Source: Rhizobium gallicum bv. gallicum R602sp (GTDB lineage Bacteria > Pseudomonadota > Alphaproteobacteria > Rhizobiales > Rhizobiaceae). Taken from it: a DNA stretch of 64,000 nucleotides. Shown here in pieces: positions 5,291-59,679 of this stretch. Position numbers and translations under genes: made by a program. Positions within the stretch are counted from its first letter, which is position 1. Each line of letters opens with the position of its first letter. The notes below the pieces were generated by a model. It did no database searches. It was given only the letters and a program-made list of their open reading frames with translations, and had not been told where the DNA came from. The stretch is taken from assembly GCF_000816845.1 (NCBI RefSeq), contig NZ_CP006877.1:3295001-3359000 (forward strand), in the 5' to 3' direction.

Positions 5291-5421
5291 CGCAGATCTT
5301 TTCTTAAGTTCGGATCGAAGGGGTATTTGAATCCCGCTAATCACGCTCCTTATAGGGATGCAGCGCTCCTCGCCGGAGCCGGTGATCCGATCCGCAAATG
5401 CCAACCGCGAGGGAATTCAGC

Positions 5422-6642: not shown

Positions 6643-6689
6643 GACGCGCCCGCTTTTAATATTGATCCAAGCCGCACAGGAATAATTTG

Positions 6690-9794: not shown

Positions 9795-9953
9795 GTGTGA
9801 TAAAAATACACTGCCAGAATGAATGACTCATTGATACATTGCCCGCGGACTGCTTCGGCATTGGTGTATCTCGTTGGGACGAAGCGCGGCCGACGGCAAA
9901 GCATGATGCTTTTGGCAAGAATTTAGACTTGGTCGAGTTACAGGAAGAAATGA

Positions 9954-13627: not shown

Positions 13628-13693
13628 GGCGCCCATTACCCGGTTCCGGCTTGCCGGGACCGCCCATTCCGCCGCCATACCGAAAGGCGCATC

Positions 13694-14521
13694 ATGTTTC
13701 AGAACCGAGCGGAAGCCTTGGCGCTTGCCCTGCCCGCAGCGGTCTTTGCAGCCGTGGTTTTTCTGCTCCCCGTTGCCATCCTGCTTTCGGAAGGCTTTCG
13801 CCTGGAAGGCGCCTGGACGCTTTCCGCCTATGGCGACTTCTTCTCCGGGACGCTGAACCGCACCGTCTTCATCCGCACCTTCAAGCTTGGTCTTGAGGTG
13901 ACGGCCGTTTCGGCGATCATCGGCTATGCCGCAGCTTTCGCCATCGTCAACCTGCCGCCCAAGGGCAAGGGCCGGATGATCGGCCTGGTTACCCTGCCGC
14001 TGATGATCTCGCCCGTTGCCCGTACCTATGCCTGGATCGTCATCCTCGGCCGCACCGGCATCGTCAACCAGGCGCTGACCGGCATGGGCCTCAGCGACGG
14101 ACCGCTACGCCTTCTCTTTACTGAAACGGCCGTGTTCATCGGCCTGCTGCAGCTCTTCTTGCCCCTGATGATCCTTTCATTGATCAGCGCGCTCGAAAAT
14201 ATGCCGAAGGATGCGATCCCGGCGGCGCGCGTGCTCGGCGCCAACTGGTTCCAGGTTTTCTGGAAGGTCATCCTGCCGCTCACCCGCGAGGGCCTCGTCG
14301 TCGGCGGCACGCTCGTCTTTACCGGCTCGCTGACGGCCTATATCACGCCCGCCGTGCTTGGCGGTTCCAAGGTGCTGATGCTCGAAACGCTGCTCTACCA
14401 GCAGGTCTCCGTCGCCAACAACTTCGTTTCCGCAAGCGTCATCGCCTTCATGCTGATCGTTATGAGCTTCGCCGCGAATATTCTGCTGAAGCGCCTGGCA
14501 ACTGCAAGGAACAAGCGATGA
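13694..14521 (+). CDS. ABC transporter permease, PotB-like
   Basis: A 275-residue inner-membrane permease of the binding-protein-dependent type, with about six helices. The cytoplasmic coupling motif (EAA loop) is seen around NMPKDAIPAARVLGANWFQV near residue 170. It corresponds to the first permease of polyamine/opine/phosphonate-type importers. It begins 66 bases after the binding-protein gene and overlaps the next permease by 4 bases (ATGA), so the two subunits are translationally coupled. Confidence 0.88.
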   Translation: MFQNRAEALALALPAAVFAAVVFLLPVAILLSEGFRLEGAWTLSAYGDFFSGTLNRTVFIRTFKLGLEVTAVSAIIGYAAAFAIVNLPPKGKGRMIGLVTLPLMISPVARTYAWIVILGRTGIVNQALTGMGLSDGPLRLLFTETAVFIGLLQLFLPLMILSLISALENMPKDAIPAARVLGANWFQVFWKVILPLTREGLVVGGTLVFTGSLTAYITPAVLGGSKVLMLETLLYQQVSVANNFVSASVIAFMLIVMSFAANILLKRLATARNKR

Positions 14522-15297
14522 CCGCCCGTCTGTTCTCACCGATCGTGCTTTTCCTCGTGCTGGCGTTCCTGATCGGGCCGTTTCTCATCATCATCGCCGC
14601 ATCGCTTTCGGCCGGCGATACGCTCGCCTTTCCGCCGCAAGGCCTCTCGCTTCGCTGGGTGATCAAGGTCTTCACCATAGAGAGCTTCCGCGACAGCTTT
14701 TCGATGTCGATGTTGCTTGCAGTCTTCGGAACGCTCGCCGCCCTCGTGCTCGGCATTCCGGCCGCCTACGCTCTGTCGCGCTATCGGCTGCCCTTCGGTG
14801 AAACGGTCCGAACCGTCGTCTCGCTGCCGATCATCGTCCCGGGCATCATCGTCGGCCTCGCATTATTGCGTTACCTCGTCGTGCCCTTCGGCTTCAACAT
14901 CACGCTGGCGCTCTTCTTCGCCCACACGGCGCTCGTGCTGCCCTATGCCGTGCGCGTCGTCTCCGCAAGCCTCGACAATTTGCGTTCAGACATCGAGGAA
15001 GCCGCCGTGCTGCTCGGCTCGTCGCGCCTCGGCGCCTTCTTCCGTGTCGTGATGCCGAATATCCGCGGCGGCATTCTTGCCGCCTTCATCCTCGGCTTCG
15101 TCACCAGCTTCAACCAGGTGCCGGTCTCGCTTTTTTTGTCCGGCCCTGGTGTGCGCACGCTGCCAATCGATATGCTGGGCTACATGGAAACCACTTACGA
15201 CCCGTCGATCGCCGCGCTCTCCTCGCTGCTCGCCTTCCTTTCCATCGGCATCGTCTTCCTCGCCGAACGCTTCCTGGGACTGTCTCGTTATGTCTGA
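14518..15297 (+). CDS. ABC transporter permease, PotC-like
   Basis: The second permease (259 residues) of the same importer. It has six predicted helices and an EAA-type loop near DIEEAAVLLGSSRLGAFFRV (about residue 160). A 4-base overlap joins it to the preceding permease and an 8-base overlap to the ATPase gene. Length and layout fit the PotC-like partner of a heterodimeric permease. Confidence 0.88.
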   Translation: MTARLFSPIVLFLVLAFLIGPFLIIIAASLSAGDTLAFPPQGLSLRWVIKVFTIESFRDSFSMSMLLAVFGTLAALVLGIPAAYALSRYRLPFGETVRTVVSLPIIVPGIIVGLALLRYLVVPFGFNITLALFFAHTALVLPYAVRVVSASLDNLRSDIEEAAVLLGSSRLGAFFRVVMPNIRGGILAAFILGFVTSFNQVPVSLFLSGPGVRTLPIDMLGYMETTYDPSIAALSSLLAFLSIGIVFLAERFLGLSRYV

Positions 15298-16312
15298 TGT
15301 CTATCTTCAACTCGATAAGCTGACGCTGGCCTACGGCGATACGGTCGCCGTGAAGGATCTCGACCTGTCGATCGCCAAGGGCGAACTCGTCGCCTTGCTC
15401 GGCCCTTCAGGCTGCGGCAAGACGACGACGATGCGCTCCATTGCAGGTCTGCTCGCGCCCGCCTCCGGCCGCATCAATCTCGATGGCGCCGACATCACGC
15501 GGGTTTCGGCCAACAAGCGCGCCGTCGGCCTCGTCTTCCAGTCCTACGCGCTCTTCCCGCACCTGACGGTCTATGAGAACGTCGCCTTCGGCCTTCGCCT
15601 CAAGGGTATCAACGGACAGACCCTCGATAGCCGCGTCAACGCCGGCATCAAGTCAGTCGGCCTCTCCAGTTTCGCTTCACGCAAACCCGCAGAACTCTCC
15701 GGCGGCCAGCAGCAGCGAGTGGCGCTTGCCCGTTCCATGGTCATGGAGCCGAAGGTGCTCCTGCTTGACGAGCCGCTCTCCAACCTCGACGCGCGCCTGC
15801 GCCTCGAAATGCGGGCAGAACTGCAGCGCGTGCAAAAGGAAACCGGCGTTACTATGATCTTCGTCACCCACGACCAGGCGGAGGCCCTGGCCCTTGCCGA
15901 CCGTATCGTGGTCATGCTGAACGGCGGCATAGAGCAGATCGGCACGCCGGAAGAAATCTACAACAAGCCGGTCTCCGCCTTCGTTGCCGATTTCGTCGGC
16001 TTCGAGAATGTCTTCAAGCTGCAGAACGGCAGGCTTGTCACGCCGAACGGCGCCATTGAACTTTCCCTTCCCGCTCCGCAGGCGGCAGGGCTGGCCTGGC
16101 GGCCGAGCTCGGTCGCGCTTGGTTCCGGTCCTTTCCAGGGCGCCGTGCGCGGCACCTCCTTTGCCGGCAACACGCGCGAATATCTGCTTGATACGCCGCT
16201 CGGGCGGGTCAAGGCCGAGGTGGATGCAAGCCTGCCGCCGCACGAAATCGGCGCGTCACTTTCCTTCGACCTACCGCTTGCGGCGGCTGCAACTCTCACG
16301 CGCTTCGGGTGA
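15290..16312 (+). CDS. ABC transporter ATP-binding protein, PotA-like
   Basis: A 340-residue importer ATPase. Walker A is GPSGCGKTT (about residue 38), the Q-loop is VFQSYALFPHLT, the signature is LSGGQQQR, Walker B is VLLLDEPLSNLDA, and the switch His is in FVTHDQAEA. The C-terminal 100 residues form the TOBE/MOP-like regulatory domain usual in PotA/UgpC proteins. The ATG at 15290 lies inside the end of the second permease gene. The next gene begins 4 bases after its stop, linking transport directly to nucleoside hydrolysis. Confidence 0.92.
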   Translation: MSDVYLQLDKLTLAYGDTVAVKDLDLSIAKGELVALLGPSGCGKTTTMRSIAGLLAPASGRINLDGADITRVSANKRAVGLVFQSYALFPHLTVYENVAFGLRLKGINGQTLDSRVNAGIKSVGLSSFASRKPAELSGGQQQRVALARSMVMEPKVLLLDEPLSNLDARLRLEMRAELQRVQKETGVTMIFVTHDQAEALALADRIVVMLNGGIEQIGTPEEIYNKPVSAFVADFVGFENVFKLQNGRLVTPNGAIELSLPAPQAAGLAWRPSSVALGSGPFQGAVRGTSFAGNTREYLLDTPLGRVKAEVDASLPPHEIGASLSFDLPLAAAATLTRFG

Positions 16313-41804: not shown

Positions 41805-42812
41805 TTATGCGTGCCGATAGATGTCGTCGATAATTTTGGCGACCTCGACAAGCCGTTCGCAGGAGGGATCGTAAGCCTGACCAGTCGCGAGCCGGGCCGC
41901 CCAGTCCGCCGCCCCCCGGCCGCCCCAATCGTCGGAAGGCAGAACGAGGCCTTCAGTGGCTGTGCCGCGGAAGCGATGGGCGGTAAAGTCATAGAATGAC
42001 CCGCCGACATTCTTGAAAGATGCACCCCCGGTTGTTCCGAAGAAATCGGCCCCGATAACCGCATCGCACCCAGCCTGCAGCCGCCAGGAGCAGGCGAGGC
42101 GGATGACCGCATCCTTTGCCAACGTCAAAGTGGCGACGGCGAAGTCTTCGACATCCTCCGCCTTGTTGATCGACACGCCACCTTTCATCAGCGTACTCCT
42201 GGTCTCGGTCACCTCAGGAAAGTCAAGGCACCAAAGCGCCATGTCGATGAGGTGGACACCGAGGTCGATCACGCATCCTCCACCCGACAGTGACTTGTCG
42301 TAAAACCAGGATTTGTCCGGGCCGTAGGCATTGTGAAAGACCAGATCGGCGGCGAAGACGGTGCCAAGCTCGCCATTTCTGATCAGATCGCGGATGCGCT
42401 GCATGCCTTGCGTGTAACGATAGGACAGATCGACGCCCAACAGCCTGTCGGCTGATCTGGCGGCGGCCACGACCGCTGCCGCCTCCGCCGCGGATCGGCC
42501 GAGCGGCTTTTGGCAGAACACTGCAGCACCGGCCTGCAGCGCCCCGACCGACTGCTCAGCGTGCAAAGCGCTCGGAGTGGCAATGACGATGCCGTCGAGG
42601 CCGAGCGACAAAAGCGCATCGAGATCGGCGACGACTTCGGCATCCGGCGCAAGGCGCAGGGCTTCTTTTATCATTTCCTCAGAGGGATCGGCGATGGCAA
42701 CGGCTATGGCCATTTGCGAGCGAAGGATCGCTTCCATTCGGTTCCTGCCGATCCAGCCGACACCCAGAAAGCCAAGTCTGACGGGCTTGACCCGCGTCTC
42801 GAGCGGGCGCAT
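41805..42812 (-). CDS. Gfo/Idh/MocA family sugar oxidoreductase
   Basis: A 335-residue NAD(P)-dependent dehydrogenase. The Rossmann fold opens with RLGFLGVGWIGRNRME, the second motif is VFCQKPLGRSAAEA with the conserved lysine, and the substrate-side GGGCVIDLGVHLIDMALW supplies the catalytic Asp/His pair. It overlaps the alcohol dehydrogenase stop by one base (TGATG). Such pairs act on sugars or inositols in oxidation/reduction steps. Here they would prepare or modify the sugar used by the divergent glycosyltransferase operon. Start ATG at 42812; a TTG two codons upstream is less likely. Confidence 0.88.
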   Translation of the reverse strand: MRPLETRVKPVRLGFLGVGWIGRNRMEAILRSQMAIAVAIADPSEEMIKEALRLAPDAEVVADLDALLSLGLDGIVIATPSALHAEQSVGALQAGAAVFCQKPLGRSAAEAAAVVAAARSADRLLGVDLSYRYTQGMQRIRDLIRNGELGTVFAADLVFHNAYGPDKSWFYDKSLSGGGCVIDLGVHLIDMALWCLDFPEVTETRSTLMKGGVSINKAEDVEDFAVATLTLAKDAVIRLACSWRLQAGCDAVIGADFFGTTGGASFKNVGGSFYDFTAHRFRGTATEGLVLPSDDWGGRGAADWAARLATGQAYDPSCERLVEVAKIIDDIYRHA

Positions 42813-43798
42813 CAGCAAGTCACCATTGCCTTGAGGAAACCCTCGGGCCTGTCTCGGGTTGCGTCGAGCGCTTCACCCAAGCCTTCGAGCGGATAGACAT
42901 GCGTATAAAGCGGTGACGGATTGAGTCTGCCGGAAACAACCGCTTCGATCGCCTCGCGCATGCCACTAATATAAATCCTGGGATCGCGTTCGTGAGCATT
43001 GATAATGTCGAGGCCACGCCAATTCCAGAGCTGCATATTGACCTGTCTCGGCCCGTCCTGATGGTATCCAGCCACCACCAACCGGCCGCGCTCCGCGGTC
43101 AGTTCACCGGCCAGGTCGAGCGGCCACTGCTTGCCGACCGCCTCAATGACGCAGTGGCAGAAAGCACCGTCGGTTAGTCGTTTCACGGCATCGATGATCC
43201 GCCAGTGATCATCCATCGGCAAGGTCTCGGCGGCGCCTACGCGCTTGGCAATTTCGAGCGAGAACGGGCGGCGCGAGATTGCGATGACGCGCGCGCCTGC
43301 GCCGCTGGCAAGCTGTGTCAGCAAGGCGCCGAGAAATCCGATCCCGATGATCGCAACCGTCTGGCCGGGCTCGACCCCGCTGCGCCGGAATATGTTCATC
43401 GCGCAGCCAAGCGGCTCGCCTAGGAAGGGTTGACCGTCGAGCGCCGGCGGCAACGCCACGACCATGTCTGCATCTGCGATGTCGTGGGTAGAGTAGGCGT
43501 GATATGAGAGCGCAGCGACACGGTCTCCCAAATTAAGGGCCGACACCCCATCCCCGAGCGCATCGATTCTGCCCCAACCCTCGTGACCGAGGCCGCCCGG
43601 CTCCGTCGGAAAGGCCATCCATTCCGGTCCGGCCCAGGGCGCAAGATTGGAGGCGCACACGCCCGATCCTTCGAGCCTGATCCTAACCTGGCCCGCTCCT
43701 GGGTATGGAAGAGGCCTTTCTACGACTGACATTTGTCCGGGGCCGGTGATGATCGCCGCCCGGATCGTTCCCTCGGTCGTTCTTGGCAACATGTTCAT
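42812..43798 (-). CDS. Zinc-type alcohol dehydrogenase (MDR family)
   Basis: A 328-residue medium-chain dehydrogenase. The GroES-like half has GVCASNLAPW and GHEGWGRIDALG, the nucleotide-binding half VAIIGIGFLGALLTQLA. The zinc position after GSGVCASN (GVC) is kept. The start is the ATG at 43798 with AAGGAG 6 bases upstream; 65 further in-frame residues are rejected. It is the first gene of the minus-strand arm of the glycan locus and is preceded by an EcfG-type promoter at 43957-43933. Confidence 0.86.
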   Translation of the reverse strand: MNMLPRTTEGTIRAAIITGPGQMSVVERPLPYPGAGQVRIRLEGSGVCASNLAPWAGPEWMAFPTEPGGLGHEGWGRIDALGDGVSALNLGDRVAALSYHAYSTHDIADADMVVALPPALDGQPFLGEPLGCAMNIFRRSGVEPGQTVAIIGIGFLGALLTQLASGAGARVIAISRRPFSLEIAKRVGAAETLPMDDHWRIIDAVKRLTDGAFCHCVIEAVGKQWPLDLAGELTAERGRLVVAGYHQDGPRQVNMQLWNWRGLDIINAHERDPRIYISGMREAIEAVVSGRLNPSPLYTHVYPLEGLGEALDATRDRPEGFLKAMVTC

Positions 43799-43932
43799 GA
43801 ACTGCTCCTTCGTTTTGGGACAGCCGGCCTGCTTGACGGCAGACGTCGTTGCTGCCGCATGTGTTTCCGCTCCGACGATCCGACCTCTCACGACGTGGCC
43901 CTCCTCAGTCTTCGCTAACGGATTGGCCGCCG

Positions 43933-43957
43933 AACCAAGGACGCCGCCAGATGTTCC
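43933..43957 (-). promoter_or_regulatory. EcfG-type promoter, minus arm of glycan locus
   Basis: GGAAC, 16 bases, GGTT on the minus strand, about 135 bases before the alcohol dehydrogenase gene, in the 260-base divergent intergenic region. Confidence 0.55.
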
Positions 43958-43997
43958 GGATGAAGTCAAAGAACATGTCAAAGATGATGTCATTGAA

Positions 43998-44022
43998 GGA
44001 ACAATCTTCGCCGACCTCGGTT
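43998..44022 (+). promoter_or_regulatory. EcfG-type promoter, plus arm of glycan locus
   Basis: GGAAC, 16 bases, GGTT on the plus strand, 36 bases before the first epimerase gene. It lies 40 bases from the oppositely directed copy. Confidence 0.62.
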
Positions 44023-44058
44023 CGGCAGGTCACCTTCAACTCGAGCGGACGGAATGAG

Positions 44059-45165
44059 ATGGCGACGATCCTTGTAACTGGTGGCTGCGGCTTCATCGGA
44101 AGACATGTTGTCGAAGAACTTCTCGAAAGCGGCTATGAGGTGCGAGTCCTCGATGCGTTGCTTGATCAGGTTCACGGCGGTGCTGAAACGTTGCTGCCCG
44201 AGACTGCCGAAATCATGCGCGGCGACGTCAGGGACAAGACTGCGGTCGAACGGGCTTTATCAGGCGCCGCGGGCGTCATCCATCTTGCCGCAGAGGTCGG
44301 CGTCGGACAGTCGATGTACGAGATCGCCCGATATGTCGGAGGCAATGATCTCGGCACGGCTGTCCTTCTGGAGGCGATGATCGGTCGCCCGCCCAAACGC
44401 ATTGTCGTCGCCTCGTCCATGAGTGTCTATGGCGAGGGTCGATATGAAACCTCCGACGGTGCGCAGCTCGAGCTGGTCAGGCGACGCAGCGACCAGATCA
44501 AGATCGGCCAATGGAATCCGCGCGGTGCTGACGGCGAAGTGCTAAGGCCGGTGGCGACGGATGAGGAAAAGCCCGTTGATCTCGCCTCGATCTATGCGCT
44601 GACCAAATATGCGCAGGAAAAACAGGTTCTGATTTTTGGCGAAGCCTATGGCGTCGAAGCGGTAGCGCTACGCCTTTTCAACGTGTTCGGCGCCGGCCAG
44701 GCTTTGTCCAATCCCTATACCGGCGTATTGGCAAACTTCGCCTCGAGGCTCGCCAATGGCCAGCCCCCGATGATCTTCGAGGACGGCGAGCAGCGGCGAG
44801 ATTTTATCCATGTGCGCGACGTGGCGCACGCCTTCCGCCTCGCACTCGAAAAACCCAATGTTGCAGGGCATGTCATTAATATCGGCAGCGGCCATGCCTA
44901 TACGATCGCTGAGGTCGCAACGCTTCTCGCCGATGCGATGGGCGTGCCGGAGATACGGCCTGAGATCATGAACAAAGCGCGGTCCGGCGATATCCGCAAC
45001 TGCTTTGCGGACATCGCAAAAGCGCGCGAACTCCTCGGCTTCGAGCCGCGCTTCAAGCTGGAAAACACGCTCGGACCGTTCGCCGAGTGGGTGAGACATA
45101 CCGGAGCGATCGACCGCGGCGCGGAGATGAAACGGCATTTGGAAGAAAGAGGATTGGTGTCATGA
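44059..45165 (+). CDS. NAD-dependent sugar epimerase (dTDP-L-rhamnose 4-epimerase/WbiB-like)
   Basis: A 368-residue extended short-chain dehydrogenase. TGGCGFIG (residues 7-14) binds NAD. HLAAEVGVGQSMYEIARYV and VVASSMSVYGEGRYE are followed by the catalytic YALTK, then ALRLFNVFGAGQALSNPYTG and DGEQRRDFIHV. This pattern matches the WbiB/dTDP-L-rhamnose 4-epimerase branch, which gives 6-deoxy-L-talose. The substrate is inferred. The start is the ATG at 44059; it ends with an ATGA overlap onto the fusion gene and opens the plus operon. Confidence 0.87.
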   Translation: MATILVTGGCGFIGRHVVEELLESGYEVRVLDALLDQVHGGAETLLPETAEIMRGDVRDKTAVERALSGAAGVIHLAAEVGVGQSMYEIARYVGGNDLGTAVLLEAMIGRPPKRIVVASSMSVYGEGRYETSDGAQLELVRRRSDQIKIGQWNPRGADGEVLRPVATDEEKPVDLASIYALTKYAQEKQVLIFGEAYGVEAVALRLFNVFGAGQALSNPYTGVLANFASRLANGQPPMIFEDGEQRRDFIHVRDVAHAFRLALEKPNVAGHVINIGSGHAYTIAEVATLLADAMGVPEIRPEIMNKARSGDIRNCFADIAKARELLGFEPRFKLENTLGPFAEWVRHTGAIDRGAEMKRHLEERGLVS

Positions 45166-47204
45166 CCGTATCCGGATTGTCCGCCGGGACCGGCACAGCC
45201 TTGAGATCTTATGGCTTCGTCGACTGGTTCCGTCCGGGAGAATACGAACGGACGTCGCAGACGATTTCGGAGGTCGGATTAAGCGGCGCGAGTTATTTGC
45301 GCACGCATCTGTCATGGGCCGAATATCTCGCTCCTGGTGGCGAAGCGTGGTTTGATTGGCTGATCCCGAAGCTTGGGCGCGAGATCGATCTTCTGCCCTG
45401 CATTCACTACACGCCGCCGTCCTTGTCACGGACAGGACGGTCCTCCGGCGCACCGGCCGATCTCAAATCATATGCCGACTTCGTCGACCACGTGTTGACC
45501 CGATACGGACGGTATTTCAGCCACATCGAATTGTGGAACGAACCAAACAACCTGCTCGACTGGGACTGGCGCGAGGACAAGGACTTCCTGCTCTTTTGCG
45601 AGATGGTCGGCGGCGCCGCCTTTTGGGCCAAACATCGAGGCTGGCAGCCGGTACTCGGGGGCCCATGCCCCTTCGACCCCTACTGGCTCAACCTGATGGG
45701 AGAGCGGGGCGTACTTGGCGTCGTCGATGCCGTCGGCTTTCACGGTTTCCCCGGCACATGGGACAGCGAGGAAGGCACCTGGGGCGGCTGGGATATGCAT
45801 CTTGGCGAGATGCGAAGAATTATCGACCGGTTCAATGACAACGCTGAGATCTGGATCACCGAAACCGGCTATTCGACCTGGCGCAACGACGATGTGGAGC
45901 AGGCCCGGCGTTTTGTAAAGGCTCTGAGTGTGCCAGCCGACCGGATGTATTGGTATTCCTGGCGGGATGTGCCGCCGGATGTGCCGGTGCAGGAAGGCCT
46001 TTGGTTCGACCCTCGGCACTACCATCTCGGTGCCGTCACCCACGACAACCAGCCGAAGCTGCTCGCTCGCCTGCTGATGGAAGGCGGGGTCGACCGGCTC
46101 GAACAGGTCGCACGGCTCGCCACCCCCAACGTCGCCAGAGGAGCCGCGCCGATCGTCATCACCGGAGGCTGCGGCTTCATCGGCTCCAACCTCGCCGACA
46201 GCTACCTCCAGGACGGCGAAGACGTCGTCGTTCTCGATAATCTGGGGCGGCCAGGCGTCGACCAAAACCTCGGGTGGCTGACTGACAGGCATGGCTCAAG
46301 TGTACATCCTGTGCTTGCCGACGTGCGCGACGCCAGAAGTATTGAAGCAGCCTTTGCCGACGCCAAGTCAGTATTTCATTTCGCCGCCCAGACCGCGGTC
46401 ACCACTAGTCTCATCCATCCGATCGACGACTTCGAGGCCAATGCTCGCGGCACGATCAATGTGCTGGAATCGGTGCGCAAGGCGGGCCGCCATGCTCCGG
46501 TGGTCTTTGCCAGCACCAACAAAGTCTATGGCGGACTCGACAACCTTGCTATGCGTGAGTTCGAGGACCGCTACATTCCGGTCGATGAGATCATCCGGTC
46601 ATACGGTATCGGCGAAGACAGGCCGCTCGATTTCTGCACCCCCTATGGCTGCTCGAAAGGCGTGGCCGACCAGTATGTGCTGGACTATGCGAAGTCCTTC
46701 GGCATCCCGACGGCCGTGCTGCGCATGAGCTGCATCTACGGTCCTCGCCAGTTCGGCACCGAGGATCAGGGCTGGGTAGCGCATTTCCTGATACGGGCGC
46801 TCGCTGGAGAGCCCGTCTCGATCTACGGCGACGGCAAACAGGTCCGAGATATTCTTCACGTTGCGGACGCGATTGCCGCCTATCGCAGCGTTCTCAACGG
46901 CATTGACGGGATCAAGGGCCACGTCTTCAACCTGGGGGGCGGCCCGGTGAATGCCGTCAGCGTCCTGGCGGTCCTGCGCGAGATCGGCAGGCTCATTGGG
47001 CGTCCGGTCGAGACTTTCTTCGACGACTGGAGGGCGGGCGATCAGTATTTCTTCGTCGCAGACACCCGCAAGCTGGAGCACACGCTCGGCTGGAGCGCGC
47101 GTGTCGGCTGGGAAAGCGGACTGCAGCACCTGGCGGAGTGGCTTATTGAAAACCGTTTCGGCGGCAGACCGATCTTGGGCCACGATCGAAAGGTGTCCGC
47201 ATGA
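45162..47204 (+). CDS. Glycoside hydrolase-like domain fused to CDP-tyvelose-epimerase-like SDR
   Basis: A 680-residue, two-domain protein. Residues 1-310 form a TIM-barrel glycosidase-like domain with LWNEPNN (acid/base Glu 127) and WITETGYSTW (nucleophile Glu 234), as in clan GH-A families. Residues 330-680 form an extended SDR: TGGCGFIG (334-341), STNKVYGG, catalytic YGCSK (Tyr 495, Lys 499), and the RMSCIYGPRQFGTEDQGW segment typical of CDP-paratose/tyvelose 2-epimerases. There is no signal peptide, so both act in the cytoplasm. The frame is continuous with no stop at the junction. It overlaps both neighbours by 4 bases. Confidence 0.86.
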   Translation: MTVSGLSAGTGTALRSYGFVDWFRPGEYERTSQTISEVGLSGASYLRTHLSWAEYLAPGGEAWFDWLIPKLGREIDLLPCIHYTPPSLSRTGRSSGAPADLKSYADFVDHVLTRYGRYFSHIELWNEPNNLLDWDWREDKDFLLFCEMVGGAAFWAKHRGWQPVLGGPCPFDPYWLNLMGERGVLGVVDAVGFHGFPGTWDSEEGTWGGWDMHLGEMRRIIDRFNDNAEIWITETGYSTWRNDDVEQARRFVKALSVPADRMYWYSWRDVPPDVPVQEGLWFDPRHYHLGAVTHDNQPKLLARLLMEGGVDRLEQVARLATPNVARGAAPIVITGGCGFIGSNLADSYLQDGEDVVVLDNLGRPGVDQNLGWLTDRHGSSVHPVLADVRDARSIEAAFADAKSVFHFAAQTAVTTSLIHPIDDFEANARGTINVLESVRKAGRHAPVVFASTNKVYGGLDNLAMREFEDRYIPVDEIIRSYGIGEDRPLDFCTPYGCSKGVADQYVLDYAKSFGIPTAVLRMSCIYGPRQFGTEDQGWVAHFLIRALAGEPVSIYGDGKQVRDILHVADAIAAYRSVLNGIDGIKGHVFNLGGGPVNAVSVLAVLREIGRLIGRPVETFFDDWRAGDQYFFVADTRKLEHTLGWSARVGWESGLQHLAEWLIENRFGGRPILGHDRKVSA

Positions 47205-48307
47205 TCCGTCGACGAGCCCGGATATTGATGACCCTCGATGCAGTTGGCGGCGTCTGGCGCTATGCGATGGATCTGGCCGCCGGGCTTCGGGGCCGAGGGG
47301 TGGAAATCGTCTTCACAGGCCTCGGTCCCGCACCGTCGGCAACACAGACCGGAGAGGCGAAAGCGCTGGGACAGCTGGTGTGGCTCGATGCCCCTCTCGA
47401 CTGGATGGCGACGAACAGGGCTGAGATATCCGTAGCTCCCGCCGAAATTTCTCAGATTGCCAGAGACTACGGGGTCGATCTGCTGCATCTCAACCTGCCC
47501 TCCCAGGCTGCTGGAATCGATACGCCGTTGCCGGTTGTCGTGGTTTCCCATTCCTGTGTCGTCACGTGGTTTGCTGCAGTGCGCGGGACGCCGGTGCCGC
47601 CGGAGTGGTCATGGCAGCGCGATGCAAACTGTGAAGGCTTTGATCGCGCCGATGCCGTGCTTTCGCCTAGCAGGAGCCATGCGGATGCACTACGAGCCGC
47701 CTATGGTCTGATCCCCCGGCTCAGGGTGATCCACAACGCCAGCCGCGTCGGTTCCGACCAGCGTCCAAAGAATATTTTCGTCTTCGCAGCCGGGCGCTGG
47801 TGGGATGAGGGAAAAAACGGCGCGGTGCTCGACAGGGCGGCGGCAGCAATGCCTCTGCCCGTCATCATGGCAGGTTCTTGCTTAGGTCCCAACGGCCAGC
47901 GCCTGAAACTCAACGACGCCCACGAGCGCGGGCCGCTGCCATATCCGAAGACCATTGCTATGATGCAGCGCGCAAAAATCCTCGTATCGCCATCAGTCTA
48001 CGAACCTTTCGGCCTGACCGCCCTTGAGGCAGCGCGATGCGGCGCGGCTCTGGTGCTGTCTGATATCCCCACCCATCGCGAGCTATGGGACGGATGCGCG
48101 CTGTTCTTCGATCCACATGATCCCCAGTCCTTGGCAGCCACGTGCATGCGCCTCGGCGAAGACGAGCAACTGCGCAACGAGCTCGTGGTGAGATCACTGG
48201 AGCGCTCGCGAGCCTTCCGTTTGGAACGGCAGGCGGCATCGGTGCTCGAAACATATACGCAACTGATGAATGACACTTTCACCCTGGCAGCGGCGGAGGG
48301 ATCATGA
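47201..48307 (+). CDS. Glycosyltransferase family 4-type protein
   Basis: A 368-residue GT-B glycosyltransferase. The N-terminal domain contains DAVGGVWRYAMDLAAGLRGR. The C-terminal donor-binding domain has the E-x7-E motif in VSPSVYEPFGLTALEAARCG. Cytoplasmic or peripheral membrane. The start overlaps the fusion gene and the stop overlaps the next gene, each by 4 bases. Donor and acceptor unknown. Confidence 0.88.
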   Translation: MIRRRARILMTLDAVGGVWRYAMDLAAGLRGRGVEIVFTGLGPAPSATQTGEAKALGQLVWLDAPLDWMATNRAEISVAPAEISQIARDYGVDLLHLNLPSQAAGIDTPLPVVVVSHSCVVTWFAAVRGTPVPPEWSWQRDANCEGFDRADAVLSPSRSHADALRAAYGLIPRLRVIHNASRVGSDQRPKNIFVFAAGRWWDEGKNGAVLDRAAAAMPLPVIMAGSCLGPNGQRLKLNDAHERGPLPYPKTIAMMQRAKILVSPSVYEPFGLTALEAARCGAALVLSDIPTHRELWDGCALFFDPHDPQSLAATCMRLGEDEQLRNELVVRSLERSRAFRLERQAASVLETYTQLMNDTFTLAAAEGS

Positions 48308-49434
48308 AATTCCTGTTTTACACCCATTCGCTAATTTCGGACTGGAATCATGGCAACGCCCATTTCCTGCGCGGCATTATGCGGGAGCTGACCAGCCGAC
48401 GTCACGAGACACTGGCGCTGGAACCCGAGGAGTCCTGGAGCCGGTGTAATCTCGTCAGCGATCAGGGACCGAGGGCGGTCGAGAAATTTCACGACACGTT
48501 CCCGCAGCTCCGGTCCCAAATTTACGGACCGCATTTCGATCACGAGGCGGCGATCGCCGAGGCCGACGTCGTGGTGGTCCACGAATGGACGGAACCGGCG
48601 CTGGTGGAGCGAATCGGCCGAGCCAGGCGTAGCAGTGCCAATTTCACCCTGTTGTTCCACGACACACATCACCGGGCCGTGTCGGCAAAGAGTGATATCG
48701 CCGGACTGACGCTTCAAGATTATGACGGTGTGCTCGCCTTCGGCGAAACGCTGCGGCAGCGCTATCTGCAGGCTGGTTGGGGGAGATCCGTCTTTACCTG
48801 GCACGAGGCGGCTGACGACGCGCTGTTTTACCCGCGGCCGGAGATCGCCAAGATCGGAGATCTCATCTGGATCGGCAATTGGGGCGACAACGAGCGGTCC
48901 GCCGAGCTGATGGAATTCCTCATTCGCCCAGCTCGTGAGCTCGGGCTGAAAACGACCGTTCGTGGTGTGCGCTACCCCAAACAGGCGCTCGAGGCTCTTG
49001 GCGAGGCAGGCATCGCCTATGGCGGCTGGATTGCCAATGCAGAGGCGCCGCTCGCTTTCGCCAATCATAAAGTAACGATCCATGTACCTCGGCGCCCCTA
49101 TGTCGAAAATCTCCCTGGCATTCCGACGATCCGCGTGTTCGAAGCGCTTGCCTGCGGCATTCCGCTGATCTGCGCACCCTGGCACGATGCCGAGGCGCTT
49201 TTCAGGCCGGGCAGCGATTATCTCGTCGCTCAGAATGGCCGAGAGATGACGCGCCTGCTGCGCGAGGTACTGACGGACGATGCTCTCGCGGCTGCGCTTA
49301 TCGCATCCGGTCTCGAGACGATCCGGGCGCGTCACACCTGCCGGCATCGCGTCGATGAGCTTTTTGCCATCCTGGAGCAATGCGGCACGGCTGGCGTCAC
49401 CCGGCAGCTATCAACCGAGGAGGCGGCCGAATGA
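48304..49434 (+). CDS. CgeB-like glycosyltransferase 1
   Basis: A 376-residue protein whose C-terminal half matches the CgeB-like glycosyl transferase domain (DLIWIGNWGDNERSAELMEF, VPRRPYVENLPGIPTIRVFE, ALACGIPLICAPW). The N-terminal half has a GT-B-like opening (FLFYTHSLISDWNHGNAHFL). No signal peptide. It is the first of three successive CgeB-like enzymes with linked start and stop codons. Such proteins add sugars to glycans or small molecules; the target here is unknown. Confidence 0.82.
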   Translation: MKFLFYTHSLISDWNHGNAHFLRGIMRELTSRRHETLALEPEESWSRCNLVSDQGPRAVEKFHDTFPQLRSQIYGPHFDHEAAIAEADVVVVHEWTEPALVERIGRARRSSANFTLLFHDTHHRAVSAKSDIAGLTLQDYDGVLAFGETLRQRYLQAGWGRSVFTWHEAADDALFYPRPEIAKIGDLIWIGNWGDNERSAELMEFLIRPARELGLKTTVRGVRYPKQALEALGEAGIAYGGWIANAEAPLAFANHKVTIHVPRRPYVENLPGIPTIRVFEALACGIPLICAPWHDAEALFRPGSDYLVAQNGREMTRLLREVLTDDALAAALIASGLETIRARHTCRHRVDELFAILEQCGTAGVTRQLSTEEAAE

Positions 49435-50519
49435 AAATCGCGTTTTACGGATCAAGCCTGCTTTCCGCTTACTGGAACGGTGCTGCCACTTATTATCGTG
49501 GCCTGCTGCGCGCTCTGGCGCAGAAAGGCTATGACATCACCTTCTACGAACCCGACGTGTACGACCGGCAGAAAAACCGCGATATCGATCCACCGGAATG
49601 GTGCAAGGTCGTCGTCTACCAAGGTACTATCGAGTCGCTGAAGGGGGTGGCGGCGGCTGCGACCGAAGCCGATATCGTCGTCAAAGCCAGCGGCGTCGGT
49701 TTCGAGGATGATCTCCTGCTCCAGGAAGTCCTTCGCCACGCCAGGCGGGGCGCTCTGAAAATCTTTTGGGACGTTGATGCGCCGGCAACGCTTTCGGAGC
49801 TGCGGCAGAGCCCCGAGCACCCGCTGCGCAAATCCTTGAGCCGGATCGACCTCGTCCTGACCTATGGCGGCGGTGACCCCGTAGTCGACGCCTATCGCGG
49901 CCTCGGGGCGGCGGACTGCGTACCGATCTATAACGCGCTCGATTCTCAAACCCATCATCCGGTGCGGGAAGAGGCGCGTTTCACCGCAGAGCTTGCCTTT
50001 CTCGGCAACCGTCTCTCCGATCGCGAAGCGCGGGTCGAACAATTCTTCCTCGAACCGGCGACCCGCTTGCCCCAGCAAAGGTTCCTGCTCGGCGGGTCCG
50101 GCTGGAGCGACAAGCCGTTGTCTTCGAACATTGTTCACATCGGTCACGTCCCGACCCGCGACCACAACGCTTTCAACGCGACGCCAAAAGCGGTCCTCAA
50201 TATTTCCCGTGCCAGCATGGCCGAAAACGGCTTTTCGCCTGCAACCCGTGTTTTCGAAGCGGCAGGCGCCGGCGCCTGCCTGATCACCGACTATTGGCAT
50301 GGCATCGCCCTGTTTCTCAAGCCTGGTGAAGAAATACTGGTGGCGCGCGACGGCCAAGATGTCGCCGATCTTTTGGGCGGTCTGACACGGCAGCAGGCCA
50401 AGGCGATCGGACAGCGGGCGCTCAAACGCGTGCTCAATGAACACACCTATGCCAATCGCGCCGAGACGGCCGACGCCATCTTCCGCGTTCGCGCCGCGCA
50501 AGCGGAGGCTGCCGAATGA
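49431..50519 (+). CDS. CgeB-like glycosyltransferase 2
   Basis: A 362-residue relative of its neighbours. Opening IAFYGSSLLSAYWNGAATYY; later ELAFLGNRLSDREARVEQFF, NISRASMAENGFSPATRVFE and AAGAGACLITDYW. The start is the ATG at 49431 in the overlap with the preceding stop; the frame extends upstream inside that gene. Coupled at both ends by 4-base overlaps. Sequence wording differs enough from gene 1 to suggest a different sugar or acceptor. Confidence 0.84.
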   Translation: MKIAFYGSSLLSAYWNGAATYYRGLLRALAQKGYDITFYEPDVYDRQKNRDIDPPEWCKVVVYQGTIESLKGVAAAATEADIVVKASGVGFEDDLLLQEVLRHARRGALKIFWDVDAPATLSELRQSPEHPLRKSLSRIDLVLTYGGGDPVVDAYRGLGAADCVPIYNALDSQTHHPVREEARFTAELAFLGNRLSDREARVEQFFLEPATRLPQQRFLLGGSGWSDKPLSSNIVHIGHVPTRDHNAFNATPKAVLNISRASMAENGFSPATRVFEAAGAGACLITDYWHGIALFLKPGEEILVARDGQDVADLLGGLTRQQAKAIGQRALKRVLNEHTYANRAETADAIFRVRAAQAEAAE

Positions 50520-51634
50520 CCAGTTCGCTTGATATCATCATCCTCGGCCTCTCCCTGTCGTCGTCCTGGGGCAACGGCCACGCAACGACGTACCGCGCCC
50601 TCATCGGTGGCTTGCACGCACAGGGGCACCGGGTGTTGTTCCTGGAGCGGGACGTACCTTGGTATGCAGCCCACCGCGATCTCCCGGATCCCGACTTCTG
50701 TGAACTCGTCTACTATCGCGATATCGACGAGATGATTGAAAACCATGCCGGTCGGATCAAGGCGGCGGACGCGGTGATCATCGGATCATACGTCCCATCC
50801 GGTGTGACTGTCATCGACGGGATCGTCGCCCTTAAGCCGCGACGGTTATGCCTTTATGACATCGATACTCCGGTCACGCTGGCAAAGCTTGATCGCGGCG
50901 ATGAGGAATATCTGGCTCGCCGACAGCTTCCGACCTTCGACGCCTACTTCTCGTTTTCGGGCGGAGACATTTTGACCAGGCTCGAACGCAGCTACGGCGC
51001 GCGCAAGGCGATCGCTCTTTACTGCTCCGTCGATGCGAGCCGATATCAGGCAACGGGCGAAGCCTTCTGCTGGGATTTCGGCTATCTCGGCACCTATAGC
51101 CCCGACCGGCAGCCATCGCTGGAGCGGCTCCTGATCGAGCCCGCCCGTCAGTTGCCGCATCTTCGCTTCGCAGTTGCCGGTCCGCAATATCCTGAAGATA
51201 TCGACTGGCCGGCAAACGTCGAGCGGATCGAGCACCTGCCTCCAGCCGATCATCCGAGTTTCTATAGCCGCCAACGCTTTACGCTGAACGTCACGCGAAG
51301 CGACATGATTGCAGCAGGCTGGTCGCCTAGCGTGCGGCTGTTCGAGGCCGCTGCCTGCGGCACGCCAATCATCAGCGACGACTGGCGCGGCCTCCACGAG
51401 CTTTTCGTCAACGATCGGGCAATCGTCATCGCCCGACGATCGAAGGATGTGGTCGACGCCCTGACGACGATCAACGCAGCAGGGCGCCTTGCACTGGCAT
51501 CGGCCGCCAGGGCGACGGTGGTCCAGCGCCATACCGGCGATGTGCGGGCTCGTGAACTCGCCGCCGCGTTGCGAGAACTGCCAGAAGAACGGGTGAACGA
51601 CAGCCGCCCTCACCGTCAATCCATTTCAGTTTAG
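50516..51634 (+). CDS. CgeB-like glycosyltransferase 3
   Basis: A 372-residue third member. Opening IIILGLSLSSSWGNGHATTY; donor domain with FGYLGTYSPDRQPSLERLLI, VTRSDMIAAGWSPSVRLFEA and AACGTPIISDDWRGL. It resembles gene 2 more than gene 1 in the NVTRSDM/NISRASM region. It ends 7 bases before the decarboxylase-like gene. Confidence 0.84.
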   Translation: MTSSLDIIILGLSLSSSWGNGHATTYRALIGGLHAQGHRVLFLERDVPWYAAHRDLPDPDFCELVYYRDIDEMIENHAGRIKAADAVIIGSYVPSGVTVIDGIVALKPRRLCLYDIDTPVTLAKLDRGDEEYLARRQLPTFDAYFSFSGGDILTRLERSYGARKAIALYCSVDASRYQATGEAFCWDFGYLGTYSPDRQPSLERLLIEPARQLPHLRFAVAGPQYPEDIDWPANVERIEHLPPADHPSFYSRQRFTLNVTRSDMIAAGWSPSVRLFEAAACGTPIISDDWRGLHELFVNDRAIVIARRSKDVVDALTTINAAGRLALASAARATVVQRHTGDVRARELAAALRELPEERVNDSRPHRQSISV

Positions 51635-51641
51635 GAGACGC

Positions 51642-52700
51642 ATGATGCTGCAAAGGACGAGAAACCGAAGAGTAAAGACCGTGCTTGTTGCAGGAGGAGC
51701 CGGTTTCGTCGGCTCGCATTTATGCGACGCGATGCTGGCGCGCGGCGACCGGGTGATTTGCGTCGACAGCTATGTCACCGGATCGGAAGACAATGTCCGG
51801 CCGCTGATCAACCATCCCAAGTTCCGTTTGATCGAGAAGGACATCTGCCACCTGGATAGCCTCGACGAGCCTTTGGACGAGATCTACAATCTCGCCTGCG
51901 CGGCCTCGCCCCCTCAGTACCAGGCAGACCCGGTGCATACGATGATGACCTGTGTAGCCGGCACAGGCAATTTGCTTTCGCTGGCCGAACAGCATCGTGC
52001 CTCGCTGCTCCAGGCGTCGACGAGCGAGGTCTATGGTGATCCCGTAGAGCATCCGCAGACGGAAGACTACCGCGGCAATGTCAGCTGCATAGGCCCACGC
52101 GCCTGTTACGACGAAGGCAAACGCGCGGCGGAAGCGCTTTGTTTCGATATGCTGCGGGCTGGAAAGGTGGATGCGCGCGTTGCCCGTATCTTCAACACCT
52201 ACGGGCCACGCATGCAGCCGAGCGATGGGAGGATCATTTCCAACCTTCTGGTGCAAGCCATTTCCGGCGCACCGCTGACGATTTATGGAAGCGGTGATCA
52301 GACGCGCTCCTTCTGCTTTGTCAGTGATCTCGTTGCAGGGTTGATGGCACTGATGGACGTCGACCCCAATCCTGGCGCTCCGGTCAACCTCGGCAATCCC
52401 GGCGAGTTCACGATTAACCAGCTTGTCGACATGGTGATGGCCATGGTGCCGTCGACATCCATCGTCGTCCACAAGCCGCTGCCGGAAGACGATCCTCAGC
52501 GCAGACGGCCTGACATTTCACGGGCAAAAGAACTGCTGCGCTGGGAGCCGACCATCCCGCTTGCCGAAGGCCTTCGTCTGACCGCCGATTGGTTCATTGC
52601 CGCGGCCCGTCCTGATGGAGGCTTCGACAACGCACAGGTTACCCGGCGCTCGAACTGGCGGCGGCGTGCAAAAGCTGGACGTACCGCGATCGGCGTCTGA
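51642..52700 (+). CDS. UDP-glucuronate decarboxylase (UXS)-like SDR
   Basis: A 352-residue extended SDR. AGGAGFVGSHLCDAM binds NAD, LACAASPPQYQADPV is the UXS signature (usually ASPPxYxxDP), the catalytic pair is in YDEGK, and FNTYGPRMQPSDGRIISNLL plus QTRSFCFV follow, all typical of UDP-xylose synthase relatives. It would give UDP-xylose from UDP-glucuronate, or carry out a related reaction, in the cytoplasm. The C-terminal 30 residues are basic and not conserved-looking. The start is the ATG at 51642, or the second ATG one codon later. Confidence 0.88.
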   Translation: MMLQRTRNRRVKTVLVAGGAGFVGSHLCDAMLARGDRVICVDSYVTGSEDNVRPLINHPKFRLIEKDICHLDSLDEPLDEIYNLACAASPPQYQADPVHTMMTCVAGTGNLLSLAEQHRASLLQASTSEVYGDPVEHPQTEDYRGNVSCIGPRACYDEGKRAAEALCFDMLRAGKVDARVARIFNTYGPRMQPSDGRIISNLLVQAISGAPLTIYGSGDQTRSFCFVSDLVAGLMALMDVDPNPGAPVNLGNPGEFTINQLVDMVMAMVPSTSIVVHKPLPEDDPQRRRPDISRAKELLRWEPTIPLAEGLRLTADWFIAAARPDGGFDNAQVTRRSNWRRRAKAGRTAIGV

Positions 52701-52834
52701 CATGCGAGGGATAGACCACTGCATAATTCCTTATATCGGAATTTGGGAAACTTATGCAGAAATTCAAAGCGTTACCGCGTCCTTTGCGTCTGAAAAGACG
52801 CGGCGCTGTAATCGACGACGAAGGAGAGCCCGAC

Positions 52835-53599
52835 ATGGATGCAGCACACCCGACTGGACATCAGGACCTGCAAAAACGGATTCGAGAACTTGGGCCGTGG
52901 TTTCAGAATTTAAACATCGGGGGTCACATGACCGCGGCCGATCATTTCCTCGGCGATTATCCGACCTTCAAGTGGAAGGGATTCCAGCATGTGCTCCCGG
53001 CCGATCTCAGTGGTCTCAGCGTGCTCGATGTCGGCTGCAATGCGGGTTTCTATGCCCTCGAGATGAAACGGCGCAACGCTGCCCGTGTCGTTGGTATTGA
53101 TTCCGATCCACGCTATCTGGCACAGGCCCGCTTCGCCGCGGAGCAATTGGCAGCGGAAATCGAATTCAGACAGATGTCAGTCTATGATGTCGCCAGACTG
53201 AGTGAAAAATTCGACCTGGTGATCTTTATGGGCGTGTTCTATCACCTGCGTCACCCCCTGCTGGCATTGGATCTTCTTTATGAACATGTTGTCGGCGATA
53301 CGATGCTGTTTCAGTGCCTCCAGCGCGGCGATGAGCGTGTTCCCGATCTCAGGGAGGATTACGATTTTTCCGAGTGGAGCATTTTCGACCAGCCCGAATA
53401 TCCGAAGCTTTTCTTTGTCGAGGAACGCTATGCATCCGATCCCACAAACTGGTTCATTCCCAACCAGGCGGCAGTCGAGGCAATGTTGCGCAGCGCCGGA
53501 TTTCGAATCGACGACCATCCCGAACGCGAGGTCTATCTGTGCCGACGTGGCCAACGCCACTATGCGGTTGAACCGCCGCCGGTGGCCGCGTCTTGTTAG
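52835..53599 (+). CDS. SAM-dependent methyltransferase (tRNA mo5U34 methyltransferase-like)
   Basis: A 254-residue class I methyltransferase. SVLDVGCNAGFYALEMKRRN is the SAM-binding motif I; VVGIDSDPRYLAQARFAAEQ and DLVIFMGVFYHLRHPLLALD follow. WFQNLNIGG near the start and the overall plan match CmoB-like methyltransferases. I recall an NCBI family (TIGR04290) of such proteins beside glycan genes; check by HMM. The ATG at 52835 has AAGGAG 8 bases upstream, while the ATG at 52754 has none. It is 134 bases after the decarboxylase-like gene and probably methylates the glycan or a sugar precursor. Confidence 0.82.
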   Translation: MDAAHPTGHQDLQKRIRELGPWFQNLNIGGHMTAADHFLGDYPTFKWKGFQHVLPADLSGLSVLDVGCNAGFYALEMKRRNAARVVGIDSDPRYLAQARFAAEQLAAEIEFRQMSVYDVARLSEKFDLVIFMGVFYHLRHPLLALDLLYEHVVGDTMLFQCLQRGDERVPDLREDYDFSEWSIFDQPEYPKLFFVEERYASDPTNWFIPNQAAVEAMLRSAGFRIDDHPEREVYLCRRGQRHYAVEPPPVAASC

Positions 53600-58670: not shown

Positions 58671-59189
58671 TCAGCGCCAGGACAGCTGGTCCTTCGGTAG
58701 CCGACCGCTTGGATCGACCACCGTTACCTTGTGCGGAAGCTCCGCGCCCCAGTCCCAGAGCACGAGGTTCTTGTCATCGCCCTCGGCTCCGGGCGCGAAG
58801 CTCGGAACAATAATACCTGAAACGCCTTGAGGTCGCAGGCGATCGTAAATCGCCCACGACGCCGGCCGATCTCCCATACTGAGCGCCGTAGCCCATGCAC
58901 AGGCCATATCCTCCAATGCGACGTTGAATTCTACCCTTCTCTCTTCTACCGTCAGGTCCACGACATGGTCGCAATCGACCTCGTAGGAGCAGAGCACACA
59001 CGGATCGATCCGATGAGCAAACCCCTGATTGGCCTCCTTCACAGCCGTCATGATGCTCAGGCCCAAATATAGCGCTGGCACACCCTTGGGATTGAAACGC
59101 GCACCCCTTATCGCCGCTCCATCACCGGAGATCGGCTTGAATGCCCAACGAGGATCATGCGCCCGATAGCAGGTTCCCACGCACCTCAA
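58671..59189 (-). CDS. RES-domain toxin
   Basis: A 172-residue RES protein, the toxin of type II RES-Xre modules that degrade NAD+. The Arg of the RES trio is in CYRAHDPRWAF, the Glu in TAVKEANQGF, and later conserved segments are FNPKGVPALYLG and ASWAIYDRLRPQGVSGIIVP. The TTG start overlaps the antitoxin stop by 4 bases (TTGA), a weak start that would keep toxin below antitoxin. No frameshift seen; it looks intact. Confidence 0.9.
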   Translation of the reverse strand: MRCVGTCYRAHDPRWAFKPISGDGAAIRGARFNPKGVPALYLGLSIMTAVKEANQGFAHRIDPCVLCSYEVDCDHVVDLTVEERRVEFNVALEDMACAWATALSMGDRPASWAIYDRLRPQGVSGIIVPSFAPGAEGDDKNLVLWDWGAELPHKVTVVDPSGRLPKDQLSWR

Positions 59190-59575
59190 GCAAAACCGCC
59201 GAGGGCCATATGATCGAGGTATTCGCGAACCGCAGCTGCCTTGCCGTCTTTCACGAGCGATTCGGCGGTGCGCCCGCCGAATGCCGGAAGCGGATGGGCC
59301 CGATACCAGGCCATAGCCTGCTCTTTACCGCCCGCCCATTCTGTAACGCGGCTGATGATCTCGAGCATTTCACGCAGGCGACCTTGGGTTTTGGCCGTGC
59401 CGCTGCGCTCCACCCGATAGAGCGTCTCCCGTGCAAGTCCTGCCGTTTCTGCGAGCTGGGTCTTGGACATGCCGAACCCGTCCGCGAGCCGATCGACTAT
59501 GATCCTACCAGACCTATCCATATACGATAGAACCAGCGGTCCATTTTGCATTGCAACCTTCATGGTCCCGGCCAT
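59186..59575 (-). CDS. Xre/MbcA/ParS-type antitoxin of the RES module
   Basis: About 129 residues. An N-terminal helix-turn-helix (GFGMSKTQLAETAGLARETL) and the C-terminal toxin-binding domain (EWAGGKEQAMAWYRAHPLPA, then GGRTAESLVKDGKAAAVREY) match Xre antitoxins paired with RES toxins. Start choice is between ATGs at 59581 and 59575; AAGG precedes both. It lies before the toxin gene, with a palindromic operator just upstream. Confidence 0.88.
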   Translation of the reverse strand: MAGTMKVAMQNGPLVLSYMDRSGRIIVDRLADGFGMSKTQLAETAGLARETLYRVERSGTAKTQGRLREMLEIISRVTEWAGGKEQAMAWYRAHPLPAFGGRTAESLVKDGKAAAVREYLDHMALGGFA

Positions 59576-59601
59576 CGCCATCACCTTGCCACATCCAATG
59601 C

Positions 59602-59625
59602 CATATATTTCGTACAGAATATATG
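59602..59625. promoter_or_regulatory. Candidate operator of the RES-Xre operon
   Basis: A palindrome with perfect 8-base arms CATATATT (59602-59609) and AATATATG (59618-59625) around TCGTACAG, which itself has a GTAC centre. It lies 27 bases before the antitoxin start and is the expected site for autorepression. Confidence 0.7.
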
Positions 59626-59679
59626 ACCTCTCCGCGCGCAATGCAACCTCCGAACAATTGCCGGCAAAGGCTCCTGAAA

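Follow-up and report, generated by a model that had tools for sequence, protein, structure and literature searches.

A putative EcfG-controlled, ten-gene glycan cassette with a glycosidase-epimerase fusion, and its inositol-phosphate companions in related genomes

The stretch of DNA considered here, referred to below as the window, is a 64,000-nucleotide part of the 7.3 Mb genome of Rhizobium gallicum bv. gallicum R602sp (contig 1, positions 3295001-3359000). Our subject is a cassette of ten genes in this window, arranged in two divergent units, which may be transcribed under the sigma factor EcfG and may produce a soluble sugar compound. This layout had been described in an earlier note on the same DNA, and the Pfam and NCBIfam families, together with the sequence itself, bear it out: all ten genes are real and the names given to them were about right. 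Relatives of the cassette were collected by scanning two peptide patterns, both taken from the glycoside hydrolase (GH) domain of one of its proteins, over genome contigs; this gave 133 relatives, of which the best 80 loci were kept, and from their record titles we take these to belong to Rhizobiales and Rhodobacterales genera.

The minus-strand unit consists of a zinc-binding alcohol dehydrogenase (ADH; 42812..43798; Pfam PF00107/PF08240), present in 78 of the 80 related loci, and a Gfo/Idh/MocA oxidoreductase (41805..42818; PF22725/PF01408), present in 75. The ADH likely starts with the ATG at 43798; its longest open reading frame (ORF) would start at 43993, a position upstream of the EcfG-type site on that strand. 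Cys48, His72-Glu73 and Glu128 of the ADH are invariant in all 78 loci, and so are the QKP and GGG..D..H residues of the Gfo/Idh/MocA protein in all 75. The chains nearest to the latter in the Protein Data Bank (PDB) are 6jw6 and DgpA, and the best NCBIfam matches of both enzymes, which are sub-threshold, are inosose/inositol dehydrogenases.

On the plus strand the first gene, epi1 (44059..45165; PF01370), encodes an extended short-chain dehydrogenase/reductase (SDR), a GalE-like sugar-nucleotide epimerase/dehydratase with an insertion, whose Y-x3-K motif is invariant in 80/80 loci. It is followed by the glycosidase-epimerase fusion (45162..47204), by a GT4 glycosyltransferase (47201..48307; PF13439/PF00534; 80/80 loci) with PimA as its nearest PDB chains (E 2e-6), and by three CgeB-like glycosyltransferases (48304..49434, 49431..50519 and 50516..51634, found in 80, 79 and 78 of the 80 loci). 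All three pass the PF13524 gathering score of 25, with 123.8, 133.9 and 130 bits; the second, whose scan started at 49380, has no significant sequence relative among solved structures. The next gene encodes a UDP-glucuronate decarboxylase, or UDP-xylose synthase (UXS; 51642..52700; 76/80 loci), which matches UXS1 in the PDB at E 7e-100 against 4e-31 for the next family, and keeps its catalytic STSE and YxxxK residues in 76/76 loci. The last (52754..53599; 65/80 loci) is an S-adenosylmethionine (SAM) methyltransferase of family TIGR04290, scoring 382.7 bits against a curated cut-off of 300; its true start may be 52835, since its matches begin near residue 27-39. Most genes of this unit had been said to overlap by 4 bases, and five of the seven junctions do so, the last two being gaps of 7 and 53 bases. 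No 19-residue segment of the ten proteins exceeds 2.0 on the Kyte-Doolittle scale; as five of them reach 1.6-1.8, it is family type, rather more than the hydropathy scan, that supports placing them in the cytoplasm.

The fusion protein deserves a closer description. The earlier note had called it a glycosidase-epimerase fusion; the fusion itself stands, and its second half can now be specified as an SDR of the CDP-tyvelose/paratose 2-epimerase type (residues ~329-661). This half matches the CDP-tyvelose 2-epimerases 9rl0 and 1orr at E 4e-81 and 1e-79, with the next family at 3e-34, and T, N and K of its TNK segment are each present in 80/80 loci. Like TyvE (9rl0, 1orr), it has the T-N-K segment and the Gln and Trp of the D-Q-G-W loop, the reference residues being those given in the portion of PMC13098431 available to us; unlike TyvE, it is fused to a glycosidase and has no CDP-sugar synthesis genes beside it. 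Judging from its family, it may act at C2 of a CDP-sugar. The first half (residues ~1-320) finds no Pfam match even at E 10, and its best PDB profile match, a beta-xylosidase at E 0.11, is not significant, so that a structure model was used instead. The model, with a mean pLDDT of 75, matches PslG and many GH-A chains, and its predicted (beta/alpha)8 fold with two catalytic glutamates places it in clan GH-A; the two residues, Glu127 and Glu234, are invariant in 80/80 loci. The structural ranking among GH-A families is tied, and no closest GH family is singled out. It resembles PslG/GH39-type glycosidases in fold and in the two conserved glutamates, and differs from them in being fused to an epimerase and in having no Pfam match. 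A stand-alone glycosidase on Sinorhizobium pSymB (L154:1184-2146) aligns as a circular permutation of the fused one (window 45162-46130): residues 124-300 of the fused form align to 7-185 of the stand-alone form (35%, E 6e-23), and residues 18-123 align to 198-301 (29%, E 6e-10), in swapped order. The two topologies make up a natural pair related by circular permutation.

As both scan patterns came from the GH domain, the fusion is found in 80/80 loci by construction. The closest fusion proteins in named genome records are those of Rhizobium laguerreae (94% identity) and R. leguminosarum (93%). All ten genes were found in 60/80 loci, some loci being cut off by the end of a contig or of the 10-kb flank. 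Gene order holds in the relatives as well, with the first seven plus-strand genes in the same order in 75/80 loci and a divergent adh-gfo pair upstream of the plus unit in 66/80. The distribution of the cassette is patchy: the fusion or its epimerase half occurs in 13 of 61 relatives, and of 385 genomes in the class eight have the GH domain. In 50 plasmid records, 80% or more of the fusion protein is matched at a single place. A search around the 80 loci for a conserved neighbour beyond the cassette found none, the commonest ORF group occurring in 19/80 on mixed strands.

The two units are separated by exactly 260 bases (43799-44058, flanked by the start codons), as had been noted, and this region holds the single EcfG-type site per strand that had been read there. 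Both sites have the form GGAAC-N17-GTT; that of the minus unit lies at 43933..43957 and that of the plus unit at 43998..44022, 61 bases before the first start codon. The R. etli EcfG consensus is GGAAC-N16-CGTT in the part of PMC3892343 we drew on, and in both window sites a G precedes GTT (GGTT) where that consensus has C. Genome-wide, GGAAC-N17-CGTT has 27+30 matches against 44+48 for a reversed control; as the control is the commoner of the two, a lone match means little. In the window GGAAC-N16..18-GTT occurs 17 times, whereas 100 shuffles gave 3.96 on average and never as many as 17.

It is the conservation of the sites in related loci that rules out ordinary chance as their source. The regions scanned were the divergent gap plus 30 bases on each side (up to 2.1 kb in a few loci) for 69 loci treated as divergent, and 300 bases upstream for 11 treated as non-divergent. 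Upstream of the first plus gene, GGAAC-N16..18-GTT was found on the plus strand in 76/80 loci, on the minus strand in 73/80 and on both in 70/80 (61/69 of the loci treated as divergent). The plus site falls at -95 to -50 in 70/80 loci, where 0.0048 per locus would be expected; site density is 3.94 per kb upstream vs 0.29 per kb across whole loci, and the reversed pattern has only two occurrences in the 80 upstream regions. In a thinned set of 46 sites the mid-spacer positions show no conservation (0.02-0.2 bits) and the flanks show little, so the conservation of the sites is not merely overall sequence identity. NepR scored over its cut-off in 32/32 genomes, namely the window's own and 31 of the 80, but it is widespread in the class and therefore not specific. 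Among more distant regions (L111-L121), 7/11 have a site within 300 bases of epi1; among 16 non-fused regions (L142-L147, with epi1 outside the fetched view, and L149-L158), 12 have one before epi1, ino1 or the phosphatase. We also observed that in five Paracoccus loci (L093, L094, L095, L097, L100) the divergent -35 elements overlap in a palindrome (GGAACAAATGTTCC or GGAACAATTGTTCC), in which case both promoters would share one element.

Besides the ten genes, many relatives carry a set of companions which in the window's cassette is not seen. TIGR04290 scored over cut-off in 14/398 genomes of the phylum, all within the class: the window's own, G250 (region L115, of the fused type, with no Ino1 within its 14 kb), and 12 with fetched regions. 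In 11 of these 12, Ino1, a histidine phosphatase and a stand-alone GH lie within 15-17 kb around the TIGR04290 gene, the exception being L148, a fused-type region with no Ino1 seen. The same three genes occur in each of five named plasmid records, selected out of the 60 listed among 133 and representing Sinorhizobium, Azospirillum, Roseomonas, Sphingobium and Bradyrhizobium with one record apiece; on S. meliloti pSymB the genes of the cassette keep their order, and EcfG-type sites stand 68 bases before epi1 and 64 bases before ino1. In the window's genus, Ino1 occurs in 7/12 cassette carriers vs 0/25 non-carriers (Fisher p 8e-5, uncorrected for kinship), on a contig other than that of the cassette in three of the seven, and with an EcfG-type site at -57 to -66 in all seven. 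Across 61 genomes, Ino1 occurs in 8/13 carriers vs 6/48 others and the stand-alone GH in 8/13 vs 0/48. Every carrier has the GH, either fused or stand-alone, the copy in G018 showing one in-frame stop; the four carriers of the epimerase half only (G013, G018, G031, G046) all have both Ino1 and the stand-alone GH, and 4/9 fused carriers have Ino1. The Ino1 counts over these 61 genomes come from a protein query, which found the gene in 14/61 relatives; the Pfam profile PF07994 found it in 0/61 of the same genomes and was discarded as giving false negatives. That PF07994 misses Ino1 of the mycothiol type is a caution for any claim of absence based on a family profile. From these co-occurrences, the inositol-phosphate module is read as part of the wider system, and, like the TyvE-type SDR half, it is an addition to the first reading.

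The clusters from the five plasmid records (L154-L158) share most genes with the cassette and differ by adding Ino1, the histidine phosphatase and the stand-alone permuted GH. In the Sinorhizobium cluster all ten genes follow the same order, the fusion being without its GH half, and epi1, adh and ino1 each have an EcfG-type site. No UXS was seen in the Azospirillum cluster, and no ADH or Gfo in those of Azospirillum and Bradyrhizobium. Two of the five add a TIGR04295 B12-binding radical SAM protein, which the window's cassette is without, inside the Azospirillum (L155:8464-9756) and Bradyrhizobium (L158:19269-20555) clusters. A nucleotidyltransferase is added by one of the five, L158, and was noted by eye in L142 as well. 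A fourth CgeB-like transferase lies near Ino1 and the methyltransferase in L142-L145, L147 and L158.

With a probability of about 0.45, we read the cassette as a cytoplasmic pathway under EcfG control whose product is a soluble oligoside, O-methylated, containing xylose and probably primed by inositol, that acts as a stress protectant. EcfG, released by PhyR/NepR, would transcribe both units from back-to-back promoters, as the conservation of the sites suggests. UXS, as a member of its family, would make UDP-xylose in the cytoplasm, the two other SDR epimerases would reshape sugar nucleotides, and the GT4 and three CgeB-like transferases would add the sugars of a short oligosaccharide to a small soluble acceptor, after which the methyltransferase would cap the oligosaccharide. 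The ADH and Gfo/Idh/MocA enzymes might oxidise and then re-reduce a hydroxyl, and the glycosidase might trim, edit or recycle the product. The companion genes would make inositol phosphate and probably remove its phosphate, so that Ino1 and the phosphatase could supply the acceptor in most of the non-fused relatives seen. Genes for sugar nucleotides, linkage, methylation and redox steps, with no route to the outside and with these companions, make an inositol-primed soluble oligoside the simplest joint reading; the PimA structures nearest to the GT4 and the inosose/inositol dehydrogenase matches of the ADH and Gfo/Idh/MocA proteins point the same way.

Several points weigh against such a pathway. 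The protein query did not find Ino1 in the window's genome or in four other carriers of the genus, so there inositol would need uptake, or the acceptor would be another one; in the fetched stretches Ino1 is seen in 0/80 fused-type loci, in 0/7 further ones (L111-L117) and not in L148. No EcfG-type site lies upstream of epi1 in L111-L114, or at epi1 or ino1/phosphatase in L151, L152, L155 (Azospirillum) and L156 (Roseomonas). The 80 loci, being the best of 133 by similarity and related to each other, are not 80 independent events. The inositol leads of the GT4 (E 2e-6) and of the ADH and Gfo/Idh/MocA proteins, far below their cut-offs, could reflect only superfamily. Finally, we infer EcfG control, product and role alike from gene content, families, conservation and co-occurrence. 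It is more doubtful still that the product stands for an unrecognised class of protectant, namely an inositol-primed, O-methylated oligoside of xylose and a 2-epimerised sugar (mannose-type or even lyxose-type). In that case GT4 and three CgeB-type transferases would make it in the cytoplasm, and a glycosidase with two topologies, one joined to the 2-epimerase and the other free and circularly permuted, would edit it.

The alternative that survives best, though we consider it unlikely, is that the cassette makes or modifies a part of a surface glycan, be it exopolysaccharide, capsule or lipopolysaccharide, the genes for the exporter and the lipid starter lying in another part of the genome. 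PslG, which the modelled GH domain resembles, belongs to the Psl polysaccharide. Sugars of O-antigens are made by CDP-tyvelose-type epimerases, according to the part of PMC13098431 at hand. In the sections of PMC6599016 available to us, EcfG of Sphingomonas melonis controls, perhaps indirectly, a run of glycosyltransferase and exopolysaccharide-protein genes; the run (IDs 3505-3509) is mostly glycosyltransferases, 3505 being lacZ-tested and a putative indirect target, and the run may or may not correspond to the present cluster. Sugar-nucleotide enzymes next to transferases are likewise what Wzx/Wzy, ABC- or synthase-dependent polysaccharide loci look like. Unlike those loci, however, the cassette shows no exporter, polymerase or lipid starter: the absence of a flippase, polymerase, exporter and starter reported in the earlier note was confirmed for the cassette itself, and none recurs around the 80 loci, where no flanking ORF group exceeds 19/80. 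Among 40 window proteins there was no exporter, polymerase or initiating transferase, in a scan that did not extend to the rest of the genome; the transporters among them are a citrate transporter, an RND efflux set, a sugar-type ABC importer and a CbtA protein. A polysaccharide export locus was rejected on these grounds for the cassette and its 80 surroundings, the remainder of the genome being outside the search.

It is improbable that the product is a glycolipid, formed by glycosylating the inositol or glycerol headgroup of a lipid from a PimA-like start. PimA supplies the nearest PDB chains of the GT4 and many relatives carry Ino1, but the match to PimA is weak, the phosphatase adjoining Ino1 points to free inositol, and the annotated genes of the five plasmid clusters, whose gene tables are incomplete, include none named as a CDP-alcohol phosphatidyltransferase. 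Less probable again is the decoration of a surface or stress protein, for which the three CgeB-like transferases would be the argument, CgeB being a decorator of the Bacillus spore surface; PF13524 is a broad family, and no acceptor protein recurs beside the cassette in the 80 loci. A catabolic or detoxifying locus for plant glycosides, with the glycosidase, ADH and Gfo/Idh/MocA proteins as degraders, is very improbable, since, even though these families are often catabolic and the PDB chains nearest to the last include DgpA, one entry holding isoorientin, the four transferases, UXS and methyltransferase are biosynthetic in type and no importer recurs beside the cassette.

The mycothiol pathway, which starts with Ino1, MshA and a phosphatase, was also considered, and the relatives do pair an Ino1 of the mycothiol type with a phosphatase and a GT4. 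It was rejected on scores, the relatives' Ino1 reaching 555.6 against a cut-off of 638 and the window's GT4 reaching 35.4 bits where the MshA cut-off is 462.5; the window's genome yielded no Ino1, and other MshA candidates in it were not searched for.

As for novelty, the earlier note had proposed an undescribed pathway. This holds in so far as no description of the cassette was found in the open-access literature, a scope that leaves out most subscription papers and supplementary tables; it does not hold entirely, as NCBI already keeps TIGR04290 (in the window), like TIGR04295 (in relatives; named B12_rSAM_oligo), as a hypothetical equivalog. None of the terms looked for is present in PMC8877191, and the presumed locus names are absent from the portions of PMC6180224, PMC2912261 and PMC10315480 at hand; orthologs may well be listed in S. 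meliloti RpoE2 regulon tables beyond that literature. The interest of the cassette lies in its enzyme set, which is complete and patchy in distribution and has a link to EcfG that is conserved across two orders. Mutants in EcfG are stress-sensitive and, to our knowledge, the role of most EcfG targets is poorly known; a sugar product of this kind, possibly a new glycoside like a compatible solute, may aid survival under stress. Orthologs are present in rhizobia that are easily handled in the laboratory, and the cassette would give a direct route from the regulator to an isolable chemical product.

Some other features of the window may be recorded here. Of its 17 GGAAC-N16..18-GTT sites, 16 fall within 30882-62736, beside genes for DNA ligase, DUF892, DUF6328 and FMN-reductase proteins, and the segment looks like a general-stress island. 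The RND efflux set (HlyD, AcrB, OEP; 5398-11396) and the ABC importer (12605-16312), adjoined by a LacI-type regulator (11560-12603), are apparently unrelated to the cassette. A RES-domain gene paired with an Xre/MbcA/ParS gene at 58671-59641 is likely a toxin-antitoxin module.

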